A stretch of 64,000 bases of DNA from Owenia fusiformis. Its lineage: Eukaryota > Annelida > Polychaeta > Sabellida > Oweniidae. Position numbers and translations under genes: made by a program. The notes beneath the pieces were generated by a model. It ran no database searches. It was not told the DNA's origin and was given only the letters and a program-made list of their open reading frames with translations. The stretch covers positions 28,959,375-29,023,374 of the forward strand of contig CAIIXF020000005.1 of NCBI GenBank assembly GCA_903813345.2. Reading direction: 5' to 3'. Of this stretch, positions 4,093-64,000 are shown one piece after another; positions within the stretch are counted from its first letter, which is position 1; each line of letters begins with the position of its first letter.

Positions 4093-7000
4093 TATCTTAA
4101 AACTTCAACATAGCAACATTTATGTATAAAGTATTTAACTTAAAAGTATTTAAGTATTTAAGTTGTTAGATTTGAATGTGAAATGAATGTTAGCTGTATA
4201 AAGACTGAAAATATATTTTGGTGTTTTTTTGAAAATCTGAAAGGCTATTTGCTAGACAATCAAAGAATTATATTTAGATTTTTGTCGCTTAATTCTTCAT
4301 AAAGTTCTGGATTTTCTATCACAATTCCACATCTTTTATTTCTCATTTGATATTTGATGAACTACTATGCTGTATACCTGCTTTGCTTTAGAAAGAACCT
4401 TCATTCTTACAAAACCACCTTATAGTGACATAAAATACTAATGAACCTGATTTGTGGAGATTCATAGCCTAAATTGTATTAGGTGTATAATTGCTTGTCA
4501 TGATATTTGATATATATTCATCTATAATCGAGATATTTATGAATTTTACACGTAACCTATTATGATTTTTCATCTGCCAATGGAAAATAGATTTTTCTTG
4601 CAAATGGGCTTATGCATATTTTCTCTCATGTTCTCTAAAGAGTTTGATGTATGGTATGCAGTTAAGTAAAGGGCATTCCTCATTTTTGCAATTTTATGTC
4701 CATGTAAACATCTTTTTCGTTTAGAGTAGTATTAGTACTGACAAGCTAATATAGTTTCTTTGGGGAATTTGAGATGTGGGAAAAGAAACCATGTTTTATT
4801 AAGGCAGACTGGGTGGAACAAAAAATTTGGGTAATATTAAACATTATACATGATATAGGTGTATACTTATATCATGGCCTAAGATGGTGTAGAATCTTCC
4901 TCGACTGTCAATGCCTAGTACAGTTGAGGTTAAGATGAACATGAACCTGTCTTTTGAAGAAATAAAAATCAAATTATTTGAAAGGGTATGTAATATCTAG
5001 TCTACCCTATGGTTTTAATGAATTCCAGACTGGAGAAAAACCTGGTTTTTCTTGGGCAATTTGATTCCTAATTTGAGTGACCACCGGCTTATAATGGAAG
5101 TTGAAAATCCAAACAAAAGCCTCAGAGAATATGTCAAAACATTGACATTTGTGGAGAAACAGGTTCAACCTTCACTCCCCCATATAATGATAGGAAATGT
5201 TGATTTTTCTTTTACTTTACTTTTTCAGAAAATAAACTCGTCTAATGAAATTGCCATTTACCTTCTCGCTTATACGCCCTAATATAAGAACTTCATTCCT
5301 TTACAACTAACATTTGAGATTGGGATGTGTCATTTCTTATAGACTATAACAATGCTTTTGTCGTTTAAGATTTAACAATAACTTAAATAATTGTAGAAAA
5401 ATGCCACAAGATATTAATTTTGCCACTTTAGGCACTTTTAAGTGATGTTTAATTCTGATGTGTAATATAATATTACATTTACTTTTATAAAACTGCATAT
5501 TGATACAATTTTTAAATGCTAGTGACAGAAAGATATGTTATATCACAGAGGGTAAGAAGAGTTTTCCGCAATAGATATATCATTTGTGAATCACCTTCAC
5601 TTTGTTTTGAAGTCTAATAACAGAGAAAGACGCCTAAGAGATGCGGTATCAGTTAAAATACCAGATTTTACCATAAATACCATTTTCTTAGAAATGAAAA
5701 AAAATGTTGCTCCTTGTAACATTACAAATTCATATTATTTTGCTTAGCCTTAAAAGTTTAAATACATATCACTTTGACAAGTGAATCTATTACAAGTCCC
5801 CCATAGCTATTTAACAACACTAAGGGATGATATCCAAAGTTAACAATTGCGGATTTCTCTTGAATTTTTTTCAAAAGATGAAATTATTAATTAGCTACTT
5901 CTATAATTGTATTAAGTTCCTATTTCATAGCTCTTGACACTAGGACATTGTCCCTTTCTCTAGAGTAGTTAAGACAACACCAACGAAACTTTTTGAAAAA
6001 TAAAATTAGTTATTGGCTAATCCTACACTGTTTAATTTTAGTTATTTTAATCCTATTTAGAATATTTACTATAAAGCTACAAATGGTGATATTAATCTGT
6101 TAAACGGTCCTTAAGTTATAATCCATTTAGAGGAGAAATAGACTTCTGGTATGTTTTTTATCATTTAAGTAAAGTTCATTCTTCTTGGTTGCTTGATTCT
6201 AAGTAAATTGCACCACAATTGAATTCTACAATTCAGCTTTATTGGCAAGAATCTAGGACTTACGCTTACTGCTGAGAAGAGAATTCTTGGTAATATTACT
6301 ATTCAGTAGTTTATTTCAGTTAAGCCCAGTACGAATTTTCATCAACTGAATAGTGCTCCAGATAATCTCTATTATCGCCCACTCTATTATCTTTGGAAAT
6401 TGAATTTTTCTGATGTATATTTTGTTAATACTTCGTCAATGGTCATTCTTCGATATTTCTTGAACTTGAGTGGCATGGTTGCTCAGTACGGTGATTATGG
6501 TGTTAACACAGTTGAAATGACTGAGCAGCAAAAAGAAAAAGTGTCCTGGATTTTAAAATCCTGGCTTTGGATAATGAATGCAAATGCAACATGTTAATAT
6601 GGTAGCATTAGTTGCCATTAGTTAACATCTGAGGCATATATGTCACTTACTGCAATCCAGGATTTCATTCAGACATGATTGATGGCCTCAGATATAAAAA
6701 ATCTTGGTACAGATTTCATTCAATTATTCAATATCAATCAATCAATGTTAGGTTAGTTAGATTACAGGTAGTTCACCCCCCTAATGGTGGAAGATGGCTT
6801 TTATATACAGGGTGAACCAAAAAGATGCGATCTTGTGAATTTTGAATTACTTTTTTTCAAATTTGAATGAAATCTTGAATTTTCATGTTTGGATAAAAGA
6901 GATCAGTGGAGTAAAAATTTTGTCTTTTAAGAAATCACATTTTCAATCTAGGTATGCCAAGATCATAGTCATCCTATTTTTTATAAAGCTATTTTCCTCC

Positions 7001-29900: not shown

Positions 29901-32900
29901 AGAGTAATACCATCAAATCAAGCATCAATAATTCATGTCATAATATATTAGCAGGGTCTAAATGAGGCCTTCAGATAAACGAACAATTATAGCATTATTG
30001 ATTCATATATAGTTGAACTTATTTATCGAAACACCTCTCATCTGTAATCAGAACGTCTTTTTAATATGAACATTTTTTGTTCTATTTTTATTATCTCACC
30101 TCTCCCTATCGTAAGTAGTGACATATTGTAATGGTCGCCAACTTTTTTATGAACGGTATTCGGCATCTGATGGTTGGTGTTTGGCATTCAGCAGTCAAGG
30201 TTGGCAACAAATGGCAGGTGGTGACAGTTTGCGTGTCAATGCCTTGTTTTAATCTGAGATAGACTACCATGTTAAAACAAATCTTTATATGTGAACACCC
30301 GCCAAGCTGAACACTTTTGGCCAGTTTCATTGATGTTTGGATTAGATTGGTTTAACTGTATAATGGCCCTCTAGGAAAATATGCTATGTGCCTATAGGAT
30401 AGTCTTGATTTCAATCTTTATGCCCCCCTCCCCTTACATAGCATACGTTCAGAAGAAGAGGTGAAGAAGATGGGAGGGGGAGGAGAGATGCAAGATGGAC
30501 CCATGATGTACATGAATTTATATAGACTACCCTGAATCCAGTACTAATTTGAATGATTTGATAGTTTTGACGCTGATATTACCTCTCAGAAGTCTTAATT
30601 TGTTTTTTTTAGAAATAGGCCAGATCATTAATTGTACTTGGCCTTCCTTAATGTGAATACAGATATATTATCTGTATTAGAGATTTAAAAAATAATTGAT
30701 GGATAGCTCCAGTAATCGCACTTAATACCTACATATTGATCTTTACCTGGATTGAATAACCACAAGCCTGTCAGAAATGACTGATACAATATTTCACATT
30801 GAAAATATGATATGAATTGAGGGCTTAAATGCTTATGAATGTTGAATAGTTGATTGATGTACATGAATTTATATAGACTGTACCCTGAATCCAGTACTAA
30901 TATAAATGATTTGATAGTTTTGACGCTGATATTACCTCTCATGCTTTTTATATGATTTGAATCTAAAATGAATGTCGGCTACCTAAAAGCAGAATATTTA
31001 GTTGATGGTTATCATTTTCTGATTGGATGTAATCAAAATAAAAAATAATCTCTTAATAAGAGGATGAACATAATATTGAGTTCTTGAAAAGGGTGAATAG
31101 AATAATGCAAAGTGGTAGAAACATGTAGAGATAAGGAAAATTTTTATCTTCCTTCCTTTTATATGTATGAATATATGTTTCATAGAGTAGACTATAGGAT
31201 TGTAGACTTATGAAACTACAGCTGCATTGTAACAGTTTGTAAATACAGCTGATTGAGGGTCAAATATACAGCTAGTCAGTGGTAAGTAAAAAACTGGTTG
31301 ATAGATAAGAAACAACAAAAATTGTAAAATATCATATAAGACTAAAGTTATCAGAAAAACTCAGAATTAGAGGGAAATTTGGTTATGTGCAATGTGCAGC
31401 TGGTCAAAGGTAAAGGGTAAAACAATATATAGTATAGTGCTACAGTAATACCCATCTAAGTGGAACACTTTTGGTATCTCTAAAAGTGTTATACTTTGGA
31501 GGTGTTCTACTTATAGAGGTTCATTTAACATCAAGTCAGTTGGTCTTGGGACTCTGAAAAGTGTTCCACTTGTGAGGTGTTCAACTTATAGAGGCTCATT
31601 TAACATCAAGTCAGTTGGTCTGGGAGTCTGAATAAAGTGTTCTAATAACAAAGGCGTTCAACTACTTAAGGGATTTCCACTTTATTATAGGTTTCACTAT
31701 ATATGATAATCAGTCAAAGAATGGCTTGTCTATGTCCAAATGTATATGTAATGTACAGCTGGTCAGTGATCAAGCTTGCAGCTGTTCTAAGGTATAACTG
31801 GTCTGTAGTCAAGATGAGTACAGCTGATCAGCAAGTAATATAGTTAGAATTGCATTTTGTCATTATACCACTACCAGAAGTGGTGGCATATTATTCTAGT
31901 CTCCATCTTTTTTGTGGCAGTGCTCAGCAGTTGAAGTTCAGCATTCGGCATCTGTAACAAATGGTAGGTTGTGACATTTTTTATGGTAATGCCTTGTTTT
32001 AGATCTGCAAATGTTCAAATGTACATATATTCTGCCTGAAGTTAATCCTCTTATCAAAGATACAAATGTCTTACTAAATTATGGAATTAATAAGAAATGA
32101 ATCAAACTGGCAGTAAATGCCAAGGATTTTCTCATGCTGTATTTAAACTGACATATGACTTGTATTTTTGCATTTGTCATGCTGTATATTTTTTATATTT
32201 TATTGTTGTTAGTTTAGTATAAATTATTTTGTATATTGTAAACTGTACTGACTCAAATGTTATTGTGATTACATCAGGGTCAATTAAAGATATATAAGAT
32301 CATTCATCATTTTATTTTATATTGTCTGTGTTTACTCTGCATGGGCCACTAGAAAGTTAACTTTTGGTCAATAAGTTCTACCATATGCTACCATTGTTAG
32401 TGAAACAGGCCAGTAAGTAAAATATAGGCTCATAAGTGAGATGATGCGAGATGTAGTGAATGAAACGATGTGAGTTTTAGTAAATGGACCATGGGCTAGT
32501 AAGTGAGACATGGGCTAGTATGTGAATTATGGGCTATTAAGTTAGGTATGGTCCAGTAAGTGAGATAAAACTGGGATAGCAAGTACTACATAGGTCAGTA
32601 AGTGAACCATGAGCTATGAAGTAAGACATGGGCTAGTATGTGAACCATAGGCTAGTTAAGTGATGTAGGCATGCTGTTATAAGTAACACACAGGCTAGTA
32701 TGTGAACCATGGGCTAGTAAGTAAAAATAATGACTGTAGGCTGCCATTTAGAACGAACTGCTCCTAAGAAATGTATTAGTTATCATTTGAATTATTAGAA
32801 ATACAAATCTATCACAATAATAATAATTGACATACCCCACACAGATATATTATTAGGTTATATAATGGTTCTTTCTGTATATCGTTTTTATACTCGAGTG

Positions 32901-50900: not shown

Positions 50901-53900
50901 CTTAGGTGGACTGGGTCACCTTTGGGTTCCACTTATCTCTTCTTCTGATCCACAGCCATCTGGAGCTGTCTTCTGCTGCTGAGCTGATAGACTTTAAGGC
51001 ACTCTTGAGCTCCTCAATTGACTTCATGTTAAATGAAGCTCTGTATGTGGAACTCCTCCAAGATGGAACAACTTATAAGTATCAAAGGTGTTCCACTTAG
51101 ACAGGGTTTACTGTAGTTTACTGTTCTACAGTTTTTCTGAATCGTCTGTTTAATACACTGTACATTTTATATACTAGTACATGTATCTGAGTTCAAAACT
51201 ATATAGTACCAAACTGAGGCCATAGCTTACACATTTACATTGCGTTTTATTTTTAAATCTGATTATCTCAAAGATTAATCATTTTAGACAGCATGTGTTA
51301 AATCAGGATTTCTCTAAGTCCATGTTATATAATACATCAGTTTCCACATCACATCATATGAAATGATCCACAAGGATAATGTATGAAACACATATATTCA
51401 TGCTCTGTGATCGCTCTTTGCACAAAGTGTTTACATGGAGGGTGGGATAAGATTATTTTTGTAATTCATCATTTCATCTGGAAAAGTAGATTTACAAAAG
51501 ATAAGAAGGTATTAACTCTGTCATGTAAAGTTAACTATTCACTGAATATCATGAAGTGTACTAAACTCAGGTGAAATAAAACATGCATCACTAAATCCCA
51601 AATTCCAAATTACTTTGTCATATTTAAATTAAGGGGAGGGGGTTAATACTTCACAAACCAAGGCCCTCAACAAAGTTCAACATTGTAAAATTTTGCAAGT
51701 CAAATCAGTTACAAATAAAAACCCTAAGTTCATTTTTAAAACAGTGTAGTTTTTCCTGGATCATCTAGAAATGTTCTGTTATATGGAGAATAGGTCTAGC
51801 TTCTTTTGGCAGTTATATATATAAAAAAATATTTAAAACTGTATGAATTGTACTTCTAATATGGCCAGAACAGTTGAGTATATCTCTGTTACAAAAGTGT
51901 AGAAAAACGATAAATATATAAAAATAGAAATAATTTCATTTCCTTTCATCGATTCATTTCAGGGGGCATTAAACTTTCAGAGAATATAGAACTATCATCA
52001 GAGAATGAACCACTATTAGGTTTATCCACTACGGCATTGCAGTGGCTATAATGTTTCCCGCCATGTCATCTGTCGTTTCACCAACATGCTCGGAAGGTAT
52101 TTCATGGGCGACACTTTTCCTTCATGTTTTTACGCCGACACATTAACAGATTCCCAACTTTGATTGTGTGGTTTTCTTAACATCAGTTAAACTTTTGCAA
52201 GATCAAATTTTTTTTTTAATTTTATTATTTCCAAACATTTCTGACCATTTTAATTTAATTTTAATAAGTGTGAAATTGCACCAATGAATGACTGCACACA
52301 AACAGCTAATACGTGTTACAAATTTTTCCCTTTTATTTTCCGTGTTTTCCAAATTTATTTATACACATTTACAGCACTGTTCACTTTGAAGGAAAGGTGT
52401 TCAACATGAAATCCAAAATAACCAAGAAAAAAATGATTACTAACCTCAATAAAAATAATATGATTTAAAAAAAAATACATGTGACAACCTATAATAACAA
52501 ATAATAATGACAACAAAAAGTTTATAGTCATAGTAGACGTATGTATAAACACATTTTGGTAAGCTAAAAGTCAAGTTAACTAATATTGATATGACCGTGA
52601 GAGTACATCCATGATTGTAATCATGCCTTTAAAATTAGAAACAAGGTCAGGTATATCTAGAAATCATATCAGAGACGTCATATTAAAATAACTCAATTTA
52701 TACAAAACATCCAGGACAGGTGATTTCTTAAATGAAGTTTTATTTTTATAACACTGCTGTTGTAAAGTACATTTCAATCAACTTCCAGACACTGTATTAA
52801 TATTTTGAATATCAAGCTTGAATAGATGCCAGCTTAATGAGACCTTATTAAATTCATTTCGCTTTAAAAGACACAGCTCGAAAAAGCTTGAAAACCAACA
52901 AAACCACAGGGTGCTGTGAATGCCCACTTGACCTTTTGTGACCTTACAGCTCGAAGATCAGGTCGGTTAAAGGTCAACAGATAGTGCAGACGTGGTCTTA
53001 TGATTTAAAGAGTATATTTGAGTGACAGACAATTAATATTTGAACAGCCTCCGGTTAACAGATAAAACTTTGTGAGAGTATAATTGGGTGTGCATCAAAT
53101 AAAAGAAAAAGGTGTTTGAAAAACAAACGTTTTAACGCTCATGTAATATGATACTGTCATATGTACATCAAATCAAAGTTTCCATGTGAATTTGTCAGCA
53201 TTTTCATCAACAGGTGTACAAAAATTAATTCCCTGGAAATCCATTGATTTTCTCCTTGATTTAATAGTCAAACCTATTCATAGACAACCCACAAGTAAAA
53301 GAAACTGAATAACTGAATCATAGACCCCTAGTATTTTGTGCAAGAATTTCTCATTCCATCCATCACAGCCGATTAATAATTATTAATATATTTTAATTTT
53401 GTGATTTCAGGTCGTGCTGGTGCCAATGCATTATGGGATACATTACGCAATAAGTCGAAGGAAAAGATGGAAGAAGTTGACATGATGATTCCGGAAGAAC
53501 TAAAAGTAAGAACTCTCGTTGGCTTTAATTAAGCATAATTTGCTGGTGTATGTGTATGTGGGAGTTGCCTGATTAATGTCAGCCTCGGTTTTGCTCACGT
53601 CATCTTCAGCTCAAAAGATCTGATGACGTAAATCCGGCATTCTCATCGGCCAATCATTGTGCAGCACACGCACCTGTTTTTCAAAATAATCTCGAACTAT
53701 GAAAAGCGAAATTCAATCGTAATTTTCGATATTACCATGTATTTAGTAAGTGGGAGTTGCCTGATTTGTCAGCGTCAGTTTTGCTCACGCCATCTTCAGC
53801 TCAAAAGATCTGATGACGTAAATCCAGTATTCTCATCGGCCAATCATTGTGCAGCACACGCACCTGTTTTTCAAAATAATGTCGAACTATGATAAGTAAA

Positions 53901-56900
53901 ATTCAATCGTAATTTTCGATATTGCCATAGTAACACCTTAAAAGGCAATTGAACAACAGAAAGAATAATCGTCAAGGTTTTCGAAAACCCACCTTGGGCT
54001 ATATTTATATTCATAACGAGTTTGAATCTTCATAGAATGTGTACTGTATTATCTCGAGATCATGAAAACATTTAACAAAATTAAATACAAGCCGCTTCTT
54101 TTGTACTAATGTTTTCACACCTGAAATCTTAATTCTTCCAGTTTTTTTATTCTTCCAATTTTTACCAAATATCCTATCTGAGTTGAGCTGAGATTTTGAA
54201 AAGTTGAAACTGACTGATCCAACATATATTGGTTATTAAGGAGTCTTGGAAATGCTTTTTATTCATTTTCTACTACGTTTTTCAATTTTCAATCTCTAGC
54301 CATTTTCTTAATATTTAGTAAATATTTGAATGTACGGGGTGTCAAAAAACAATTGCACCTGTCTGTAATGCAAGAACTGTTTAATGAAGTACACTCTGAC
54401 ATATACCAACTTAAAGCAAATTTAGTTCTGGATTTACCACTGCAATTTAGTCACGAATGATTGAATATGAGGTTAATTGCAGCCTATATAGTAATTATTC
54501 AACTTTCAAATAAGTTGACTTATTCCATAAGGCAGCAGAAACAAATAAGATTGACCTGACTTGAATCCTTTGTTGGAGTTAGTTAATGAACACACAGAAT
54601 GAAATCCTTGAGACATTGTGCTAATTATGGATACCTATATAAATTATGCTAATAATCATGTTTTATTTTATTTCAGAATGCTTTTAGCGCCTTTATCCGG
54701 GAAGGATTGCACCAGAAAAAGAAGGTCATCAAGCGCAACTATGGTGGAAATGATGTAAGTATATGGGTTAACACTTTTTGAACTTCCTTCAGTTTCAAAA
54801 ATAGGAAGTACATGTACGAGTACATAGGAAGTGGGTACAAACTCCAAACCCAGGTCTACAAATAGCTCACTATGTTGAGTAATATTCCTTATTCATATCC
54901 TATATATAGTTCAATTTAATTCATGATTAACAAATGATTGCTTAAATGTTGAAGAATGTTGAGTTTTTTTACTGGTCCTGGTTAAACTTAGAAACCTTAG
55001 ATTAAATAAATCATGAGATTAATTTAATTTCTCCACAAATTGGTACGCCCGATTACAAGAAAAACAACCAAAAACGTCAATACTTTTGCACTGATCAGAA
55101 TCATATTATATTAAATCATGTAAACGACCACATGAAATGTTTTTCCATACAAATGGTGTGTACATTTTCAGTTCATTAATAACTAAATACACCCTTTAGG
55201 TCTAAACCCTGCGTGTATTTATGAGCCAAGTTCCTTACATGCACGCATATGGATTTTCAAAATACAATAGAAACACTTGAAACTGTTTTTATGGAAAGCC
55301 GACATTGGCACGATCGATTCAAACTTTCAGATCGACTCTCACTTAATGTTTTTAACTCGATTCTTGATAGCCAGTCTAATTATTTGATTCCAATATTAGT
55401 GTATTTCAGTGCATTTAATTGATAAAAATAAATCAGATAGCATGATAGGGTCACAAATAAAATGTGATTGCAACTAAATAGCAAATGGTCCTTTGGTACT
55501 CATATCAGGAATTTGGGAATTTCTGTATTACAAAGTTGTAAAAAAGTTGAATTAGTTCATTTAAACCAGATATGATTCATTTGCATTTCATGTTTCATCA
55601 GAAAAACTCTATTTAGATTTTTTGAAACTTTGTACACATGAAATATAAGAAACTAAAATAGCTCTAGACCCTTATTTAAACAAACCTATGGGCCTATTAC
55701 CGCTCAATGGTTTACTCAACATAGGCTAGAGGTAGTAACAATAGAAATCTATACTGTGTAAATTGACTCAGTGGCACTCGGAGTTTGGCTAGCATCACAG
55801 ATCAAGCTACCATGCTCATGAGTACAGTGAATATGTTTTTGAATTATCTGTAAAGAAACCAAGGTCTTCAGTGGCAAAGCTAGGGCCCTAGGGGGAAGGG
55901 GGGGGGGAGGTGCTAGACATAAATGGTACATTGGTTAGTGACAGTTCAATGTTACTTGCAAGACTATCACTCCCTCTAGAATTAGAACCTTATTGAACAG
56001 GTATCATTAAGGTGGGTAAAAGATAGTGACTTTTGAACCTGTCAATAAGTTAATTAATCATATTACTCACCCTCCTCCGCCTACCTTAAACATCCATGAA
56101 TTCTAAGAATCCATTGATATTATAGCCATAAGTGGTACATTAGAACAAACATTCGCTGCTTTGCAAAATGGGTAGCTTATAGTTACAAAAGACAAACATA
56201 CTCCATTGTTTCTTTTTTCTCTATAAATTGATGTCAGATTCCGTTGCATGAGACTAAGCAAACAATTGCTATAGCAACCATTAAAATGGCCGCCGGGTAC
56301 AATGGTGGATCAATTGAGAGCCAATAAAGCTCATCCTGTGGCAGATATGGAGGAAGCATCCAGTCAATAGTGTCTGTGTGTTGAAGTGATAATATGGAAT
56401 ATGTATTGTAATATATTTGAGTCAGAAAATGCTTGTCAATACATGTAACTAGAAACCCCAATAAACATGGACTTCTTGCACTAGAATATCCGCTGACTGA
56501 GTTTGGCTTCAATATGCGAAGTGCACAACTAAGCATAAACTACAGTAAAACCTGCGAACAGGGAATGCTCTTGGGACTGGAGGAAACTTTCCTTGTTCAG
56601 AGGTTTTCCCTATAGAGAGGGGCCACACTTTCAGCAAACTCAAACTTGCCGAATAAGCATATTTGTATATATATATTGATTGATTGTACAAATGCCGACT
56701 CCATACTTGTTTATGTTTTCCCCATGTTTATTTTAGCTGCTGCTAGTGTCTGATGATGTCCAGTTGATGTAATTATTGATATGATGTGTAGAGATATAGT
56801 GCTAAGAACTGAATTTCAAGTTTCATCAACCCCATTTTATATCATTGATAATCTAGAAGTTGGATCAGTAAAAGATTTAAAGAGATTTGGCTCAACATGA

Positions 56901-59633
56901 CCAAATGTACCACATGTACTTACTTTCTGTTATCTCCATAAAACAATTGTGTCAGTACCTAGATTATCACAACTGATTTGATGTAATTAGGTTTTTGAAA
57001 GGAAGAATTAGCTCATGATAATAAGTAACAGACAGATTAGTATTAGTTTTAAAATAAATCAGGGTAATTAACAGTGGGTGGGATGCTACATCATGTAAGC
57101 AATTGGCTTATCTTAATCTCAATCATATTAATCCAAGCTTTTTATATTCAGATATTGGCTTAAGACTTTCACACCTCTGAAAAATAATGGAATATACAGT
57201 GTCACCAATATTCCATATTCCTTGTTCACAGGTGAATTTTTATAATTTGCCCCAAAATAGTGTTCCTTGTTCCCTGTTCACAGGTTTTCCCTACAGAGAG
57301 GGTCCGTTAACATGTAAGTCAATGGAAAAATATTTGGTTCTTTTGAAAAGCATTCCTTGTTCATAGGTTTTCCCTACAGAGAGGTATTCCATCGGACAGG
57401 TTTTACTGTATGTATAAATGTGTAAACTAGTGTAAACTATGTTTAAATGATTTGGCCGATTTGTGCCCAACCTCTGGCATTCATAGCACATGTGTGACCT
57501 TAAAAGTCGATTCCACACACCACATACTATAGTATATAAAACTCCTATTTACTCTATTTAACCTATGTGTTTAAGTAACATCTGCTGTTCATATTCGACA
57601 GCTTATCCCAACAACATTGTGATGTTTAAATACTTTTAAACTGACAAATGTAAAATGGCTGAAAAGAGGTTTTATTGAGTTATTGTATACAGTTTTGCAA
57701 TGTGCCCCTGGTTCCCTCAAATCTCTTTATTGTTGACTCTGAGCTGGTAAATAGATATGGGGGGGATCACCAGGGTCGAGATATAAAGGTGGAAGGGGTG
57801 CTTGACGTAAAGCTACAATATATCACATGCCTGTTTACTGTGCTTTAGGTGCCTGATATGGAGAGACTCATGGATCAATCAAAATATCTGGCGATCAAGG
57901 ATCTTCAACACAAGACAGAAATGATGTACAGAACCTCACACAGAAATGAGGATCGTACCCGAATCATGACGTTCAATAACCCACTACCTGATATGAACAA
58001 CAAAGAAGGCAATGATAGCATAAGTCGATATCTGCCATCTTGGTTCCCAGAGGAGGATGTAAGTCCTGCCATCTATTATGTATTATAAATATTTAATTGG
58101 GGAGTTATAAGAAATAATCTAATCACATATAATAATTCAGAAAAAACGTTGAAAGTATAAATATGCGCAGTAATTTTTAATCAATACAATGAATCCTGGT
58201 TACTTTAGAATCGAGAAAAAACAAAGGGTACTTGACCCGGATCTGATAATGCCGCAATGAGATCAATATCAAAATTCTATACCATAACATGTTTCATTAT
58301 GTTGTCTGGCTGATCAATACAGATATCCCAAGGTGTACCTGATGATAAATTAAATATTTCTTTTGAAAGTATTCTTGAAAGCATGTTATCCTGGATTATT
58401 CTGGAAATATTGTTGTTTAGCTGGAGAAAATTTGAAAAGGGGTCAGACAAAACCTTGGCTTGAAAGCCCATTTGAAAAATATTGAACTCTGCTAAAAGAT
58501 GTTTTTGGGGGTGAGGTGAATCCCATTTTGTGATTGCATTGATCAGTTGTTTTCCTAGGGTTTATATGTGCAGGTTCACTGTGCAGTCAGTCATTTAGCT
58601 TAAATCATGATTTCACTTTGAGGAGGATCATGAAGGTTGAATCAACATAATTATTTTATTTGATTAATGTTGATCTATTGATCTGTACCCCAAGGAAGAA
58701 TTATTATCCATAAATTATTTATGATTTTCAGGATACTGAATCTGAGCTCAGTTATACCAAGTGGATTCGTCCTAAACTCTCACCACGTAAAAATAACCCC
58801 CTTCCCGACCTAGTCCCTGCCGAGGAACAGGATACCCCCAAACAGACCCCTGATACCAAAGATGAAACCTCCAAACCTATTGAATATAAGCCCACAACAA
58901 AACCAATAACTACTACAGCTCCTCCTATTGATGAAGAAGCTGATGAACTCTCTCGACAATGGGATTTCCTGGTCGCCTTAAATAAGCCAAACATGCCTCA
59001 ACAGACATTTAAATTCTTAACGGAGAAAGATGCCGAGTGTAGGGGACAATTCTCTAAGTATTGGAAAGATCTTAAAGAGGCTAGGGAGAGACCTAAAGGA
59101 TACACATCAGCTGGTGGTGATACAAAGCCGCAATCCGCCATGCCAATCCTACATGGTGACACAGGAAAATCATTTTCATCAATTTCAGGTTCAGGTACGT
59201 AGTTCTTGATTGAAAAGTATTTTGGAAGGATTCAGTTCAAAATTTTAATAAAATTTCAACCGAAATGATTTTATTTTGAAAGTATATTTGTCATTTTTAA
59301 AACTGTTAATGCTTTTCACTATTAAAGTTAGTTTAGAGCTCATGTATTTTAATGTGCTCGGCTGCATTTTAAACAATCCCCTGATTCAAAACCCGAGACC
59401 CCAAAGCTTATATTTGCCTCATCTTCATTGCAGATATCTTTAAGTCGGATAAATCAAGTTCTCGCTCTGTACCTGCCTCCGCCAGTCAGGAGTTCTTCCG
59501 TCGCTTTGAGAACACATGGCAACCCCTGAGCATGAATGCCCTTCAGGAGTACACGGCCAAGAAAGGTACAACTGGAGAAGGTGAATTTGATCACGGAGCA
59601 ACGAAACACTGGACCATAGAGACTAAATCATGA
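8865..59633 (+). CDS. Spliced gene for an 855-residue zinc-finger/coiled-coil protein of unknown family
   Basis: Fourteen exons joined by hand give one open frame (8865-8923, 11731-12004, 19679-19778, 24734-25086, 26649-26706, 27243-27295, 33615-33779, 47835-47907, 48143-48529, 53411-53505, 54677-54754, 57849-58058, 58732-59194, 59434-59633). All junctions are GT..AG and every split codon restores the frame. Visible domains: a basic stretch near residues 60-70 (KKKGKKKKK) followed by TTPR repeats; one C2H2 motif with C151, C154, H167 and H172; a Lys/Glu/Gln-rich coiled coil from about 250 to 410; a Pro/Thr-rich segment about 650-690; and a short conserved-looking C-terminal block (about 800-830). 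No signal peptide or membrane segment is visible, so a cytosolic, cytoskeletal or centrosome/cilium-type scaffold is conceivable, but that is inference. I do not recognise the family. The start at 8865 is the first ATG of the most 5' exon found and may not be the true start. The two weakest exons are 26649-26706 and 27243-27295. Confidence 0.75.
11086..11241. mobile_element. Pogo/Tigger-like MITE, short copy
   Basis: Ends TGAAACCTGTAGTGAAACACC and GGTGTTCCACTCAGATAGG then TTTTA are inverted. The interior GAGTCCGAATACCAACTGAC matches the copies at 3831 and 31443. Confidence 0.6.
11640..11730. repeat. Dispersed CATCTGTAACAAATGG repeat abutting exon 2
   Basis: The block GGCATTCAGGATCTGTAAC-AAATGGCTGGTGACATTTTGCATG is shared with 30140-30255 and 31915-32005. 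Its 3' part (TGCTGTCTTGTTTTCTTG) forms the pyrimidine tract of the exon 2 acceptor. Confidence 0.55.
11731..12004 (+). CDS. Exon 2, basic and Thr/Pro/Arg-rich segment, residues 20-111
   Basis: The acceptor is tgctgtcttgttttcttgtttcag, a strong pyrimidine tract, and the donor is GAG|GTAAAT. The segment opens with LNAKPYKSPRSAPSG, carries the lysine run KKKGKKKKK and then three TTPR-type repeats (TTPRQA, TTPRLA, TTPRLE). The composition suggests a disordered, possibly phosphorylated or nucleic-acid/microtubule-contacting tail; this is inference. The acceptor tract lies inside a dispersed repeat (see 11640-11730). Confidence 0.85.
12105..12411. repeat. 103-bp tandem repeat, three copies
   Basis: Copies begin at 12105, 12208 and 12311 (CAATTTACACAATTCAATAC). 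The first two are nearly identical and the third has diverged slightly. The array starts about 100 bases past the exon 2 donor. Confidence 0.92.
12449..14195. mobile_element. Hairpin-ended 1.75-kb element with internal tandem repeats
   Basis: The left end is a perfect hairpin at 12449-12475: AGACTCCAGATT, loop GAA, AATCTGGAGTCT. The right end closes with AATCTGGAGTCT at 14184-14195, giving a 12-bp terminal inverted repeat flanked by TTA on both sides. Inside, a unit of about 612 bp is tandemly repeated roughly 2.3 times; TTCCGGTTCGGAAGTTATGG and AGGTCAAAATAAAA mark each unit. No transposase is visible. I do not recognise the family. Confidence 0.6.
14210..14536 (-). mobile_element. tRNA-derived SINE
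   Basis: On the minus strand the head reads CCCGCTATGGCTCAGTGGCA (A box TGGCTCAGTGG, 14517-14527) and then CCCGGGTTCGATTCCCGG (B box GGTTCGATTCC, 14469-14479). The B box matches the RNA polymerase III consensus exactly. The body (TGACTGAGTGGTTCACGACT and on) is not tRNA-like and the element fades into AT-rich sequence near 14210. The head cannot fold into a full tRNA with the expected anticodon arm, so this is a SINE and not a functional tRNA. Confidence 0.8.
15775..15945. repeat. Dispersed GTGAACCCCCTTGGC element, copy 2
   Basis: The ends are CCAGGCCCATAGCCAGG and CCTGGCTACGGGCCTG, an inverted repeat, so this copy looks complete. A G run follows the left end. The interior has GGCCATTTTTGGACCAAAATTG. 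Confidence 0.7.
16455..16665. repeat. 23-24-bp minisatellite
   Basis: About nine units of AATGCTCGAAGCACAATATT plus ATA, with drift. No exon is close. Confidence 0.85.
16904..17222. repeat. MITE-like block of GGTGTTTACTACAGAGA units
   Basis: It begins CAGTAGAGACTGCATATAGT and repeats AGAGGTGTTTACTA-type units about eight times. It resembles the interior of the pogo-like MITEs; the 3' end (AATAGGTTTTTAGCTGTA) is degenerate. Confidence 0.5.
17640..19330. repeat. Mosaic of GC-richer repeat fragments
   Basis: Contains AAGTGGGTGCAAA repeats (17655-17800), a C/T-rich block (18320-18400), a short inverted-repeat MITE (18597-18731, ends TAATCTGCCCCAGGTTC and GAACCTGGCGCAGATTA), GCGAGCGAAGCGAGC at 18984-18998 and a GAAGGAACGTGGTCA direct repeat about 137 bp apart (19133 and 19270). 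No protein is encoded. Confidence 0.5.
19679..19778 (+). CDS. Exon 3, basic segment, residues 112-145
   Basis: The exon was found by requiring a phase-0 acceptor and an exon leaving one base. It has acceptor tgtgtccattgcag and donor GAG|GTACGA. It reads SCFKTLDPLIYFNRKKQNKK and then TDRRVHFQSQCDR. The leftover G joins AT of the next exon to give Asp145. Basic composition matches the neighbouring exon 2. Confidence 0.7.
21178..21395. repeat. 143-bp direct duplication
   Basis: ATGTACTTTTAGAAA followed by TTGATTGTACCTG and TGTACAA occurs at 21178 and again at 21321. The copies differ at scattered bases. Confidence 0.7.
22683..23130. mobile_element. Foldback MITE with a perfect 25-bp hairpin
   Basis: The ends TTTGATGCAATACAAATATT and, inverted, CTTGATACAACACAAATATT pair imperfectly. 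Inside, CTGTATTGCTACTGAGATTG plus TCCCC (22848-22872) has an exact inverted copy at 22914-22938. CAATACA motifs recur through the element. Confidence 0.65.
24497..24670. mobile_element. Pogo/Tigger-like MITE, 174 bp, next to exon 4
   Basis: Starts CAGTAAAACTTATTTATAAT and ends CCTAAGATAGGTTTTACTG, with TA on each side as target duplication. It ends 63 bases before exon 4, so the branch-point region of that intron lies at its edge. Confidence 0.75.
24734..25086 (+). CDS. Exon 4 with the C2H2 zinc-binding motif, residues 145-262
   Basis: This is the best-conserved-looking exon. It contains C-x2-C-x12-H-x4-H (C151, C154, H167, H172; CYHCQEKFKPAAEALRHC in the first part), consistent with a single divergent C2H2 finger. 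An acidic stretch follows (VEVEDLTLDPE, KVEEEEIE) and then the start of a coiled coil (NKQAELEKQLKNE). The acceptor chosen is tacgcag|AT at 24733, which gives the phase needed to join exon 3; a competing acceptor at 24725 would not. The donor is GAG|GTAACT. Confidence 0.88.
25087..26648 (+). other. Intron 4 content
   Basis: AT-rich sequence. The frame of exon 4 runs on to a stop at 25252-25254 but loses protein-like composition after the donor, so it is read as intron. I see no repeat or gene here. Confidence 0.55.
26649..26706 (+). CDS. Exon 5 (tentative), residues 263-282
   Basis: This 58-base exon is inferred because exon 4 ends in phase 0 while exon 6 needs one leading base. It reads ETPRHATVLNEGQPTVQES plus one base, and ends at a good donor, GTG|GTGAGA. 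The acceptor ctacaag is weak; a shorter version beginning after gggcag (CCAACTG...) keeps the same frame. Transcript data would decide between them. Confidence 0.4.
27243..27295 (+). CDS. Exon 6, coiled-coil segment, residues 282-299
   Basis: It reads EESVEELRRLELKLKLE and ends at an excellent donor, GAG|GTAAGA. Heptad-like Leu/Lys/Glu spacing continues the coiled coil of exon 4. The acceptor aactgttag is modest. If exon 5 is not used, a GAG acceptor at 27247 would give a direct phase-0 join to exon 4. Confidence 0.6.
27373..27538. mobile_element. Pogo/Tigger-like MITE
   Basis: Starts CAGTAAAACCTATGTTATCC and ends GGTGTTCGGATATATAGG then TTTCACCTT. It lies about 80 bases past exon 6. Confidence 0.65.
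29215..29835. repeat. 44-bp satellite with an orientation switch
   Basis: From 29215 to about 29640 some ten direct copies of CCTCTGACTATTACCCTTGA plus ATCCCCATTGGTCAACCATATAAC follow each other. From about 29660 to 29835 related copies appear in the opposite orientation (GGATTCAAGGGTAATAGT). The earliest copies are the most alike and divergence grows towards the switch. Confidence 0.88.
30140..30255. repeat. Dispersed CATCTGTAACAAATGG repeat, second copy
   Basis: It contains ATTCGGCATCTGATGG, GGCAACAAATGGCAGGTGG, TGACAGTTTGCGTG and AATGCCTTGTTTTAATCTG, the same order as at 11640 and 31915. Confidence 0.55.
30503..30940. repeat. 90-bp direct duplication, copies about 350 bp apart
   Basis: GATGTACATGAATTTATATA through GACGCTGATATTACCTCTCA occurs at about 30503-30592 and 30853-30941 with few differences. 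Confidence 0.85.
31443..31699. mobile_element. Pogo/Tigger-like MITE with internal duplication
   Basis: Starts CAGTAATACCCATCTAAGTG and ends TTATAGGTTTCACT. A unit with CTCATTTAACATCAAGTCAG is duplicated inside, the mirror image of the one at 3831. Confidence 0.65.
31915..32005. repeat. Dispersed CATCTGTAACAAATGG repeat, third copy
   Basis: It contains CATTCGGCATCTGTAACAAA, TGGTAGGTTGTGACATTTT and AATGCCTTGTTTTAGATCTG. This is the cleanest copy of the core. Confidence 0.55.
32395..32730. repeat. Degenerate GGGCTAGTAAGTGA minisatellite
   Basis: About 14 drifting units such as CATGGGCTAGTAAGTGAGAC and GAACCATGGGCTAGTAAGT. Period varies around 20-45 bases. Confidence 0.65.
32853..33329. mobile_element. 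Two adjoining foldback MITEs
   Basis: The left unit (32853-33010) is a long hairpin: TTATATAATGGTTCTTTCTG pairs with CAGAATGAACCATTATATAA. The right unit (about 33004-33329) is bounded by TTATTATGCCACTCTAAGTT and AGAGTGGTATAATAA. They share the TTATTA junction, so one may have inserted at the end of the other. Confidence 0.7.
33615..33779 (+). CDS. Exon 7, coiled-coil segment, residues 300-354
   Basis: This 55-codon phase-0 exon reads RYERLHDDWQQVKEDNKLEA and continues with many Lys/Glu/Gln residues (KIQKNLIKANDARARRKQHE). The acceptor is tattcaatacttgcag and the donor CAG|GTGAGC. It is a typical continuous charged helix with no proline or glycine. Confidence 0.88.
34289..34405. mobile_element. 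Pogo/Tigger-like MITE, short copy
   Basis: Starts ATAAAACCTGTAGAGTGGTG and ends CACTAAGACAGTTTTTACTG next to TA. The interior is three or four GAGAGAGGTGTTCACTA units. Confidence 0.6.
35444..35650 (-). pseudogene. Possible decayed transposon-derived frame
   Basis: A 68-residue minus-strand frame with protein-like composition (ILDWIDVRSSMIGINTAIPN, then QIYRMANSPNRCTQ). There is no splice context and no neighbour exon. I cannot name a family; a transposon remnant is the simplest reading, and chance is possible. Confidence 0.25.
36367..36445 (+). CDS. Candidate alternative first coding exon
   Basis: Within the 14-kb intron an ATG in good context (A at -3, G at +4) opens MGSESPKGVDEDIDGNNNVA then DERKVE. 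Two donors are possible: AAA|GTGGAG at 36438 (phase 0, would join exon 8 in frame as DERK-QREAKK) or GAGT|GTATGT at 36445 (leaves one base, could join exon 10). The acidic, codon-like composition stands out from the intron. Use as an alternative promoter exon is inference. Confidence 0.25.
37290..37400. repeat. Dispersed GTGAACCCCCTTGGC element, copy 3 (5' truncated)
   Basis: It retains GCACTTTTCAAGTGATTTGCACC, GTGAACCCCCTTGGC and the right end CTGGCTACAGGCCTG. The left end seen in copy 2 is missing. Confidence 0.6.
41160..41299 (+). pseudogene. Short GC-richer open frame of unknown origin
   Basis: After a plausible acceptor (tttcgttgttgcag) the frame reads SLSGNSAVLERWWRNADVTT then FWGPGFKWWIDINQSSSTI and stops. 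Its phase does not fit exon 7, so it is not an alternative end of the host gene. GC content is higher than around it. The last 22 bases of the block (41282-41303) recur at 45727-45748. Confidence 0.25.
41826..41955. repeat. 42-bp tandem triplication
   Basis: AGGGTTTCTCAAATTTTTTA plus CAAAACTCAAGATATTTGACTT repeats three times. A minus-strand frame (SNILSFVKNLRNPK repeats) is just this array translated. Confidence 0.85.
46075..46190. repeat. Purine-rich tract
   Basis: Almost only A and G on the plus strand, with GATGATGAGA and AAGATGACAAGG repeated. It could form unusual DNA structure, but I see no gene in it. Confidence 0.6.
47835..47907 (+). CDS. Exon 8, coiled-coil segment, residues 355-379
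   Basis: It reads QREAKKQLKAAHEAKLQEVC then KESL and leaves one base. The acceptor is gttgtttctatag and the donor TTAG|GTAAGT. It continues the charged helix of exon 7 across a 14-kb intron, the largest in the gene. Confidence 0.85.
48143..48529 (+). CDS. Exon 9, end of the coiled coil and central region, residues 379-508
   Basis: The acceptor is ggttcatcacag and the donor GGAG|GTGAGA. It opens with ETDRQLITERQTRRDEALRK, then KKQEEEEERIRANQ (the end of the coiled coil) and a Ser/His-rich linker. A distinctive block near residues 460-490 follows (ELEALPWHHAQLVRLYGEDE). It ends KQG with one base over, which can splice to exon 10 or to the candidate exon at 51963. Confidence 0.88.
50621..51113. 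mobile_element. Pogo/Tigger-like MITE, longest copy (493 bp)
   Basis: Ends CAGTGAAACCTGTTAAGTGG then AACACC and, inverted, GGTGTTCCACTTAGACAGGG then TTTACTG, each flanked by TA. The interior differs from the short copies: it has GC-rich sequence (50740-50840) with several chance open frames but no transposase motif. Confidence 0.85.
51963..52050 (+). CDS. Candidate alternative terminal (or cassette) exon
   Basis: After a good acceptor (catcgattcatttcag) the phase fits exon 9. The frame reads GIKLSENIELSSENEPLLGL then STTALQWL and stops with TAA at 52048-52050. Used as a last exon it would give a short isoform that lacks everything after residue 508. A second possibility is a 57-base symmetric cassette ending at 52019 (donor TTAG|GTTTAT, poor), which would join exon 10 in frame. 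The sequence shows the open frame and acceptor; use in transcripts is inference. Confidence 0.35.
53411..53505 (+). CDS. Exon 10, residues 508-539
   Basis: The acceptor ttttgtgatttcag is strong and the donor is AAA|GTAAGA. It reads RAGANALWDTLRNKSKEKME then EVDMMIPEELK, an amphipathic, charged helix. Its first two bases complete Gly508. A 192-bp tandem duplication starts about 50 bases past the donor. Confidence 0.88.
53558..53941. repeat. 192-bp tandem duplication after exon 10
   Basis: GTGGGAGTTGCCTGATT through GTAATTTTCGATATT occurs at 53558 and again at 53750, nearly identical. Each copy has CAGCTCAAAAGATCTGATGA and ATCATTGTGCAGCACACGCA. Confidence 0.92.
54336..54420. repeat. Possible mariner-type end
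   Basis: TACGGGGTGTCAAAAAACAA resembles the ends of Tc1/mariner elements; a similar TACAGGGTGAACCAAAAAGA lies at 6807-6826. Neither has a visible partner end. Confidence 0.3.
54677..54754 (+). CDS. Exon 11, residues 540-565
   Basis: This is a 26-codon phase-0 exon with acceptor ttttattttatttcag and donor GAT|GTAAGT. It reads NAFSAFIREGLHQKKKVIKR then NYGGND. Together with exon 10 it forms a compact helical block rich in basic residues. Confidence 0.87.
54755..57848 (+). other. Intron 11 content
   Basis: AT-rich. It contains a G-rich run near 55890-55910, a pogo-like block at 56542-56625 (CAGTAAAACCTGCGAACAGG) and another at 57225-57409 that ends CGGACAGGTTTTACTG beside TA. The two may be halves of one disrupted element in the CTTGTTCACAGGTTTTCC subfamily. 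Confidence 0.5.
57225..57409. mobile_element. Pogo/Tigger-like MITE, GTTCACAGGTTTTCCC subfamily
   Basis: CTTGTTCACAGG and CTTGTTCATAGGTTTTCC-CTACAGAGAGG recur two to three times and the right end is GGACAGGTTTTACTG plus TA. The matching left end is at 56542, where the same units occur. Confidence 0.55.
57849..58058 (+). CDS. Exon 12, residues 566-635
   Basis: This is a 70-codon phase-0 exon with acceptor tttactgtgctttag and donor GAT|GTAAGT. It begins VPDMERLMDQSKYLAIKDLQ and ends SRYLPSWFPEED. An internal stretch (RTRIMTFNNPLPDMNNKEG) looks like a loop between helices. Confidence 0.88.
58059..58731 (+). other. Intron 12
   Basis: A 673-base AT-rich intron. I see no repeat, gene or regulatory element in it. 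Confidence 0.7.
58732..59194 (+). CDS. Exon 13, Pro/Thr-rich linker and helical segment, residues 636-790
   Basis: This is the longest exon, with acceptor ttatgattttcag and donor TCAG|GTACGT. A Pro/Thr/Lys-rich low-complexity linker (TPKQTPDTKDETSKP, TTKPITTTAPP) is followed by a helical block (DELSRQWDFLVALNKPNMPQ and on to QFSKYWKDLKEARERPKGY). It ends in a Ser/Gly tail. The open frame on the opposite strand is a shadow of this exon. Confidence 0.9.
59434..59633 (+). CDS. Exon 14, C-terminus, residues 790-855 and stop
   Basis: The acceptor is cctcatcttcattgcag. It reads DIFKSDKSSSRSVPASASQE, then FFRRFENTWQPLSMNALQEY, and ends HWTIETKS with TGA at 59631-59633. The FFRRFENTWQPLS block looks like a conserved C-terminal motif and is a good query for a homology search. 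Confidence 0.9.
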
Positions 59634-62370: not shown

Positions 62371-64000
62371 CTGTAATACAAGAAAGACACACAACGTTAA
62401 TAAAACTGCATATAGCACAATTTGAACAATGTTAAAGCTACATTAGTATATCTTTTGATACACATTGCTTTCAGCGATATATACAGTTTATTATCGACAT
62501 TGGTTAAAAAGTAACCTCATGCATAGTCTTGCATAAAAGCTCTACACCTCTACACCTCCTACATACTTCTGAACAATGAGGTGGGGAAGAGGGGAGTGTC
62601 TGGAGCATAATACAAGACAAGAGGGGTCTGATCTTTTGATCAATTAGTTTTGAAAAATTGGTTTCATGATCTGGGCCTAAAATATTATTGAAAAATTGGT
62701 TCCAATTATTTACACATTTTTCCCTCTATTGTCTTAACTTCAAAAACATAAACCATCAAGATGTGATGAGATGAAACCTACACTTACATGAAGTACTGCT
62801 CTGGGTGTCTTGGTTACAAAGGAATCCTAGGCCAGCTGTTAATACCCCTGAGAATCTGTTATTGCCATCTAGAAATAGGAACAGAATAGAACTAGTATTC
62901 AAGTTATTTTCCGAATGGACAGATGAATGAACTGACTGACTGACGGACGGACAGGGGGCTTCACTATATCCCTACCGAACTCTGTTCGTTGAGATAACTA
63001 GGAGAACAAAAAATTGTAAAATGAGGCATTTAAATAGACATATTTTTAGTACTGACATATAACACTGACCTATCTCTTTAAATCCTTAATTTAAAAATAA
63101 CACTTATCTTCCGGTAACTGTTAATGTGACAGTGACCCCCATGACCCCATACCTTCAAGAAGCCTTACAATATCACAATAAGACATATCCTTTTATTGAA
63201 CTTTTGGTTTGACCTATAAATGTGACCTTAACCTCTACAGTATTTACTAATATAATATTTCTACCAAACCTGAATAAACCTTTATTTCTATGTACACTGT
63301 TTATCATTTTGATATCATACCTTGTGATTGAGCTGCTATTATATGCCTCACCGCGGAGGCATGGCGCTGAATAATGGATATTGCACTTAAAGTTATTGCA
63401 TCGAATAAAACAAGATGGCCACCTCCTGTACCGACCCAGAGGCTGCTGCGGGACTGGAGCATTAGGGATGTTATTCGAGAATCAATGGACAGACAACTTT
63501 GACCAGATTTCCTAAAAAATTAAATATAAGACATTACAAGAATTGAGAAAATAGCACAATCTGCTCATTCAATCTCTTAAAGTTCTATGAGATAGAGGAG
63601 CATTTGAAATGCATAACAAACTCCCATAAATCATATATTATAATAGTATTTTGTTCTAAGTTGACATCAATTACTTGAGTATTTGTGCTAAGTTGACATC
63701 AACTACTGGAGTATTTGTTCTAAGTTGACATCACTTACTTGAGTATTTGTTCTAAACTGACATCACTAACTTGAGTATTTGATCTAAGTTGACATCAAAT
63801 ACTTGAGTATTTGTTCCAAGTTGACATCACTTACTTGAGTATTTGTTCTATATCTACAGTGCTTCTACAGACTCCCTTCCTAATATCCCATATCTGAAGT
63901 ATTGCACTTCCCCTGGTTGAGAGATACATCTGAGACTGTTTAACACACAAACAGCTCACCAACAGTCTTTCATTGCTAAAATTCAGAAACATGAGTGTTA
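62237..64000 (-). CDS. LRRK2-like: LRRK2-like ROCO kinase, C-terminal WD40 end (partial, spliced)
   Basis: Four minus-strand exons (64000-63835, 63511-63321, 62868-62788, 62370-62237) join in frame to give the last 189 residues of the protein and a TAG stop. The WD40 blade sequences AILQIWDIRKG, RITSLMLQSRSSLWVGTGGG with HLVLFD directly after, and CIAVWDSDLPQQVQ match the final blades of animal LRRK2, where LWVGTGGGH and VWDINLP occur at the same places. The last residues (VQHIQHANKTREEWKQRHCQ) correspond to the C-terminal helix that runs along the kinase domain in LRRK2. LRRK2 is a large Ras-of-complex GTPase plus Ser/Thr kinase that acts at membranes and microtubules and phosphorylates Rab GTPases (established for the family). 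The catalytic domains lie beyond the right edge. LRRK1 is the main alternative, but the LWVGTGGGH block favours LRRK2. The vertebrate RRTSVE tail is absent. Confidence 0.85.
62788..62868 (-). CDS. LRRK2-like exon c
   Basis: Acceptor cctatttctag, donor TTCAT|GTAAGT. It encodes GNNRFSGVLTAGLGFLCNQD then TQSSTS; split codons give Asp before it and Leu after it. The hydrophobic VLTAGLGFLC strand corresponds to the VMLVLGY strand of human LRRK2. Confidence 0.85.
63321..63511 (-). CDS. LRRK2-like exon b, WD40 blade with LWVGTGGGH
   Basis: Acceptor attttttag, donor CAAG|GTATGA. It encodes KSGQSCLSIDSRITSLMLQS, then RSSLWVGTGGGHLVLFDAIT and a blade strand ending HIIAAQSQ. The LWVGTGGGH string is the strongest family signature in the window. 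Confidence 0.88.
63648..63852. repeat. 32-bp minisatellite containing the LRRK2-like splice donor
   Basis: Six units start exactly 32 bases apart (63661, 63693, 63725, 63757, 63789, 63821). On the minus strand each reads roughly GAACAAATACTCAA then GTAAGTGATGTCAACTTA. The last unit overlaps the end of exon a and its real donor at 63834. The unit starting at 63725 also carries an intact CTCAAGTAAGTG; the others have changed donors (GTAATT, GTAGTT, GTTAGT, GTATTT). The array looks like repeated copying of the exon-intron junction. Confidence 0.85.
63835..64000 (-). CDS. LRRK2-like exon a (cut by the window edge)
   Basis: The frame is open from the window edge and reads TLMFLNFSNERLLVSCLCVK, then QSQMYLSTRGSAILQIWDIR and KGVCRSTVDIEQIL. 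It ends at donor CTCAA|GTAAGT; the leftover AA joins G of the next exon as Lys. QIWDIRKG is a canonical WD40 blade end. A possible 24-base intron within it (63936-63959) was rejected because the frame runs straight through. Confidence 0.8.

Follow-up and report, generated by a model that had tools for sequence, protein, structure and literature searches.

In the 64,000-nucleotide stretch of DNA that we analysed (hereafter the window), the end of an LRRK2 exon and the splice donor that follows it belong to a 32-bp tandem repeat that runs on into the intron, and this array is very probably a minisatellite over an exon-intron border of the kind called a "mirage" in amphioxus, with copies that are probably inert. 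As described in the available text of two reports, mirages are minisatellite-like tandem duplications of exon-intron borders, found in the amphioxus genes for Adh3, the globins BflGb6 and BflGb9, TnC, and PGBD5; they are unstable in length and do not interfere with regular splicing, even though many copies hold splice signals (PMC3087553; PMC3902484). Our array, whose units are designated U1 to U6, has the size of a minisatellite (period 32, 6.4 copies, score 319). Its unit lies across an exon-intron border, predicted here from the sequence, with the authentic border among the copies (in U1), and the splice signals are kept in part of the copies, i.e., GTAAGT is present in U1 and U4 and altered in U2, U3, U5, and U6. 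We would describe it as a real case whose kind is known but whose gene and, apparently, lineage are new.

The copies of the array match each other at 87% with 0% indels, according to TRF. On the minus strand, the transcript runs through U1, U2, U3, U4, U5, and U6 in that order and then through a partial seventh copy at the low-coordinate end of the array. Every unit consists of a 15-nt part of the exon tail, the donor or its remnant, and the start of the intron; 16 of the array bases (63835-63850) are exonic, and the remainder is intronic. The consensus of the six units is the sequence of U1, the unit that bears the exon end. Measured against this consensus, 12 substitutions are spread over four of the six units (three in U2, four in U3, three in U5, and two in U6), and the mean pairwise difference among units is 0.11. 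A preliminary description of the window had reported six exact 32-bp units, which holds for their spacing but not for their sequence, since only two of the six are identical. The same description had placed the end of a LRRK2-like exon and its donor inside the array, in agreement with our mapping of the last exon base to 63835 and of the donor GTAAGT from 63834 onward, and had assigned the real donor to the last unit, which is indeed last in plus-strand coordinates and first in the transcript. The further unit that it credited with an intact GTAAGT, given as starting at 63725, does contain the second such motif (starting at 63738); this is U4, the only array unit besides U1 with an intact donor. 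The mutated donors that it ascribed to the remaining units are likewise found there. All features are listed in Table 1.

Table 1. Features of the repeated LRRK2 exon-intron border, in window coordinates
Feature	Position	Strand	Basis
32-bp minisatellite, 6.4 copies	63645..63850	-	TRF; unit listing
U1: 15 nt of exon tail, then the authentic donor (GTAAGT at 63834) and the start of the intron	63818..63849	-	
U2: donor altered to GTATTT	63786..63817	-	
U3: donor altered to GTTAGT	63754..63785	-	
U4: same sequence as U1 (32/32), with an intact GTAAGT at 63738 as decoy donor	63722..63753	-	
U5: donor altered to GTAGTT	63690..63721	-	
U6: donor altered to GTAATT	63658..63689	-	
LRRK2 beta-propeller exon, 141 nt	63835..63975	-	open frame; in-frame join; Pfam Beta-prop_LRRK2
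Intron of 323 nt in phase 2, with donor GTAAGT and acceptor TTTTTTAG	63512..63834	-	join stays in frame
Next LRRK2 exon (low limit set by where the open frame ends rather than by a mapped donor)	63304..63511	-	open frame 63304-63519; LRRK2 match

By eye, AG stands directly before the copy of the exon tail in four of the five intronic units (U3 to U6; 63658-63785). Each of these four can be read as AG, 13 nt, and GT, from which a micro-exon might arise, with no clear pyrimidine tract.

The last base of the beta-propeller exon is tied to the donor, and its first base, 63975, was placed from TTTTAG/C and the reading frame. Joining this exon to the next one keeps the frame (...VDIEQILK/KSGQSC..., with the slash at the junction), and the joined sequence reads ...STVDIEQILKKSGQSCLSIDSR.... 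The assignment of the gene was made with peptides strung together from open frames, as distinct from a finished gene model: the propeller peptides matched Beta-prop_LRRK2 in Pfam (E 2.2e-60) and, using HMMER, the WD40 structure of human LRRK2, 6dlo (E 3.7e-29), while the kinase exons, which lie upstream in the transcript and beyond the window (in L002), matched LRRK2 at E 4.9e-72 versus 1.5e-34 for the best LRRK1 chain. Judged by these matches, the gene qualifies as an LRRK2 orthologue whose kinase and propeller are nearer to LRRK2 than to LRRK1, and the earlier naming of the gene is borne out. When the exon pair was searched against the genome at E up to 1, it matched two places, both within the same LRRK2 gene; no paralogue of the pair was found by this search, in which the lack of a match is no proof of absence. 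Paralogues were dropped as a candidate outgroup, the matches being confined to the one gene. Elsewhere in the gene, an array with units of about 113-145 bp (L002, 4826-5567) sits between two LRRK2 kinase exons, with open frames at 4469-4657 and 5939-6061, apparently away from any border.

The array appears to have arisen on the spot. A 30-nt pattern of the unit, allowing up to three mismatches, has six matches in the 498-Mb assembly, all six of them in the array (reversed control, 0), and a search with the array DNA found one place in the genome, where both searches score best candidates only and the DNA search ignores words that are very frequent. As the unit is found only at the LRRK2 array, the array was presumably made locally, and an origin from a dispersed repeat or transposon gains no support from unit matches so confined.

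The comparison with human LRRK2 speaks for the multiplication of an old border rather than for an array that captured an exon end. A primer table, in the part of the source available, shows codon 2385 in exon 48 and codon 2397 in exon 49 of human LRRK2, with an intron between them (PMC3855417). By the HMMER alignment, which has gaps and low confidence in this part, our predicted border lies at this stretch or no more than a few residues away. The intron does not look new, because its position is close to that of the human intron; because the alignment is gapped and of low confidence at the border, it does not prove that the exon end is old. One could turn the order around and suppose that the array came first: a minisatellite in the intron would have extended to the exon end, or been captured by it, and the border would have slid into one of the repeat units. 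The weak, gapped alignment of the last exon residues to human LRRK2 would fit such a history, but the consensus of the units is the exon-bearing unit, the intron lies near the human intron, and the pattern and DNA searches of the genome found no source array elsewhere; we consider this order quite unlikely. It is extremely unlikely, in our view, that the copies or their number were made by the assembly: tandem repeats are prone to mis-assembly, a single assembly was examined, and one amphioxus mirage is reported, in the available text, to have been aberrantly assembled in a draft genome (PMC3087553), yet four of the six units carry two to four substitutions relative to the consensus, unlike the result of a simple duplication error, and the array is embedded in a 42-Mb contig. 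If an old border was multiplied, then a 32-bp segment comprising the last 15 exon bases, the donor, and the first 17 intron bases would have been tandemly multiplied into the intron, a direction that we infer along with the mechanism, presumably slippage or unequal exchange. The copies would then have drifted, save for U1, on which coding and splicing would act as constraints, and U4, which may have stayed unchanged or been converted.

With regard to splicing, the frame of the next exon is reached from the U1 donor alone among the array donors, and past this donor the frame reads AAG TAA, i.e., a stop within one codon. Hence, only U1 is predicted to yield a full-length protein. An intact decoy, U4, lies 96 nt downstream of U1. 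It has nine donor bases in common with U1, and the computed pairing with U1 snRNA is -6.4 kcal/mol for both, against -1.9 to -3.4 for the other four donors, as calculated with the sequence of the snRNA end without modified bases. Because the donor bases and the pairing are the same as in U1, the donor itself offers no reason for U4 to be ignored. The preliminary description had expected changes in copy number to create decoy donors and longer or frame-shifted exons. A decoy is already present, in the form of U4, and the predicted outcome of using a downstream donor is immediate truncation, not a frame shift, because TAA follows within one codon. From the positions, the stop after use of U4 lies 92 nt upstream of the new junction, and a stop so placed before a junction usually leads to nonsense-mediated decay (a vertebrate rule). 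U4 can be viewed as a latent decoy: splicing from it would lengthen the exon by 96 nt, with an in-frame TAA within one codon, the product would be LRRK2 minus the last part of the propeller, and the transcript would likely be degraded. The other copies would be removed together with the 323-nt intron and probably have no effect for most of the time. Changes in copy number could carry a risk of another sort, in that an exchange placing the donor of U2, U3, U5, or U6 beside the exon would swap a working donor for an altered one.

Nevertheless, the LRRK2 gene is probably spliced normally despite the array, as would be expected from the mirages published for lancelets, which reportedly leave splicing undisturbed, and the array most likely has no function of its own. 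A poison-donor switch would have U4, and perhaps the weaker copies, in regulated or appreciable use, so that stop-containing LRRK2 transcripts lower expression and copy number tunes the level. Such a switch could build on the identity of U4 to U1 over 32 of 32 bases, on the TAA that use of U4 sets 92 nt before the new junction, and on the precedent of human IFI6, whose repeat units act as donors in the available account (PMC4526556). However, mirages in lancelets are reported, in the text available, not to disturb splicing with their splice signals intact, and nothing in the analysis shows U4 in use. A special RNA structure that would hide the decoys was considered as well; none was found, the folding of the region being ordinary (z -0.71, with 43 of 200 shuffles folding at least as well), and this, too, speaks against a switch, which we hold to be quite improbable.

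The placement of the substitutions gives only a hint that changes are enriched in the decoy donors. Half of the substitutions (six of 12) hit the six donor positions of the 32-bp unit (P 0.010 under random placement), and the donor is hit in all four changed units (P 0.045 under random placement), each time at +3 to +5, in a test whose donor region was picked with the data in view. Three of the units share the same G-to-T change at +5; counted as distinct changes, four of ten fall in the donor (binomial P 0.10), and because of this sharing the enrichment is not significant. It is very improbable, we believe, that selection switches off the decoys and keeps U4 as a poison donor that damps LRRK2, with copy number as a heritable dial.

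The closest published likeness is to the amphioxus mirages, in which repeats that span a border multiply the splice signals beside the authentic border in several copies, some with the signals kept. The 32-bp LRRK2 unit is inside the range of the Adh3 mirage units, given as 10-72 bp in the available text (PMC3087553). It differs from the amphioxus cases in gene (LRRK2) and in lineage (apparently spiralian), and instability and normal splicing are what has been reported for amphioxus. The genome is unlike that of a lancelet in its Hox proteins, where KLTGP follows one homeodomain and IKEINEQ and IKDLNES follow two others, signatures that suggest Spiralia. The molluscan haemocyanin family, tried as another marker of lineage, gave no match, but it was equally silent in all 14 control genomes (0 of 14) and is uninformative. 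Among the matches listed from the open-licence literature, as far as their available text goes, there was no LRRK2 border minisatellite and no mirage outside lancelets, which does not show absence from print. The preliminary description had called the array a rare visible case in which an exon border has been multiplied inside its own intron. That structure is indeed present, and such repeats are uncommon, but the phenomenon is less unprecedented than the description suggests: the kind already has a name and several published lancelet examples, and human IFI6 is related.

In IFI6 (also G1P3 or 6-16), an exon-end minisatellite has repeat units that carry splice donors, and two downstream repeat units are used as donors, giving several mRNAs, according to the part of the report available (PMC4526556). 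The LRRK2 array resembles it in having donor-carrying repeat units at an exon end; in contrast to the several mRNAs of IFI6, use of a downstream donor in LRRK2 is predicted to bring an immediate stop. The IFI6 paper is cited elsewhere, in a source likewise available in part, for the view that VNTRs in introns may affect splicing (PMC2915984). In genes of human segmental duplications, minisatellites with, on average, 30-bp units and 4 repeats are described, in the available text, as modifying gene structure, and those at exon-intron boundaries as a possible cause of new introns (PMC2812944). Our array is similar as a minisatellite that alters gene structure, whereas the human cases are recent paralogues with transcript evidence and the LRRK2 exon pair is one for which no paralogue was found. 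The AGGT model, as it is outlined in the text at hand, has the tandem genomic duplication of an exonic AGGT create an intron. Splice signals are multiplied by tandem duplication in both, but the model makes a new intron, and the LRRK2 array multiplies an existing border with no new intron seen. Intron gain by the AGGT model was rejected for the array because the donor sequence in its units is CAAGT (in U5, CCAGT) and not AGGT, and because the intron, being near a human one in position, does not look new. An abalone gene has a 27-bp minisatellite inside an intron, and the available description does not have that array touching a border.

The array thus places a mirage-type border minisatellite outside lancelets, in an apparently spiralian genome and in a medically relevant gene. 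With two identical donors at a distance of 96 nt, it is a natural test case for how the spliceosome picks one of them, and also for whether selection removes decoy donors; as one case based on sequence, it leaves current ideas unchanged.

The window as a whole has a G+C content of 33.8% and contains 28 distinct tandem arrays, which make up 5.9% of its bases. If these 64 kb are typical, then by extrapolation the 498-Mb genome would hold about two hundred thousand arrays, and with a total so large, some arrays that touch splice sites are to be expected. The donor motif CAAGTAAGT occurs twice in the window, both times in the LRRK2 array; since 20 of 100 shuffles have two or more occurrences, the motif alone is no evidence. 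Open frames on the plus strand at 57849-58088, 58714-59202, and 59385-59633 resemble exons of a neighbouring gene, of which the first two are without a Pfam match at 0.001. An imperfect 19-bp array at 32478-32722 holds four GTAAGT/GTGAGT motifs on the plus strand, and none of the listed ORFs of at least 40 aa around it looks exon-like, so that donor-like motifs also occur in arrays without a visible adjacent exon. A 190-bp tandem duplication at 53547-53928 (2.0 copies, 92% matches) has one GTAAGT/GTGAGT motif on the plus strand. Finally, in L003 (918-1785 and 8800-9998), tandem-repeat rows recur 610 bp apart, which points to a larger duplication, and there is a large array of GACCTTGAGAAGGTCATTGAAGGTCA-like units.
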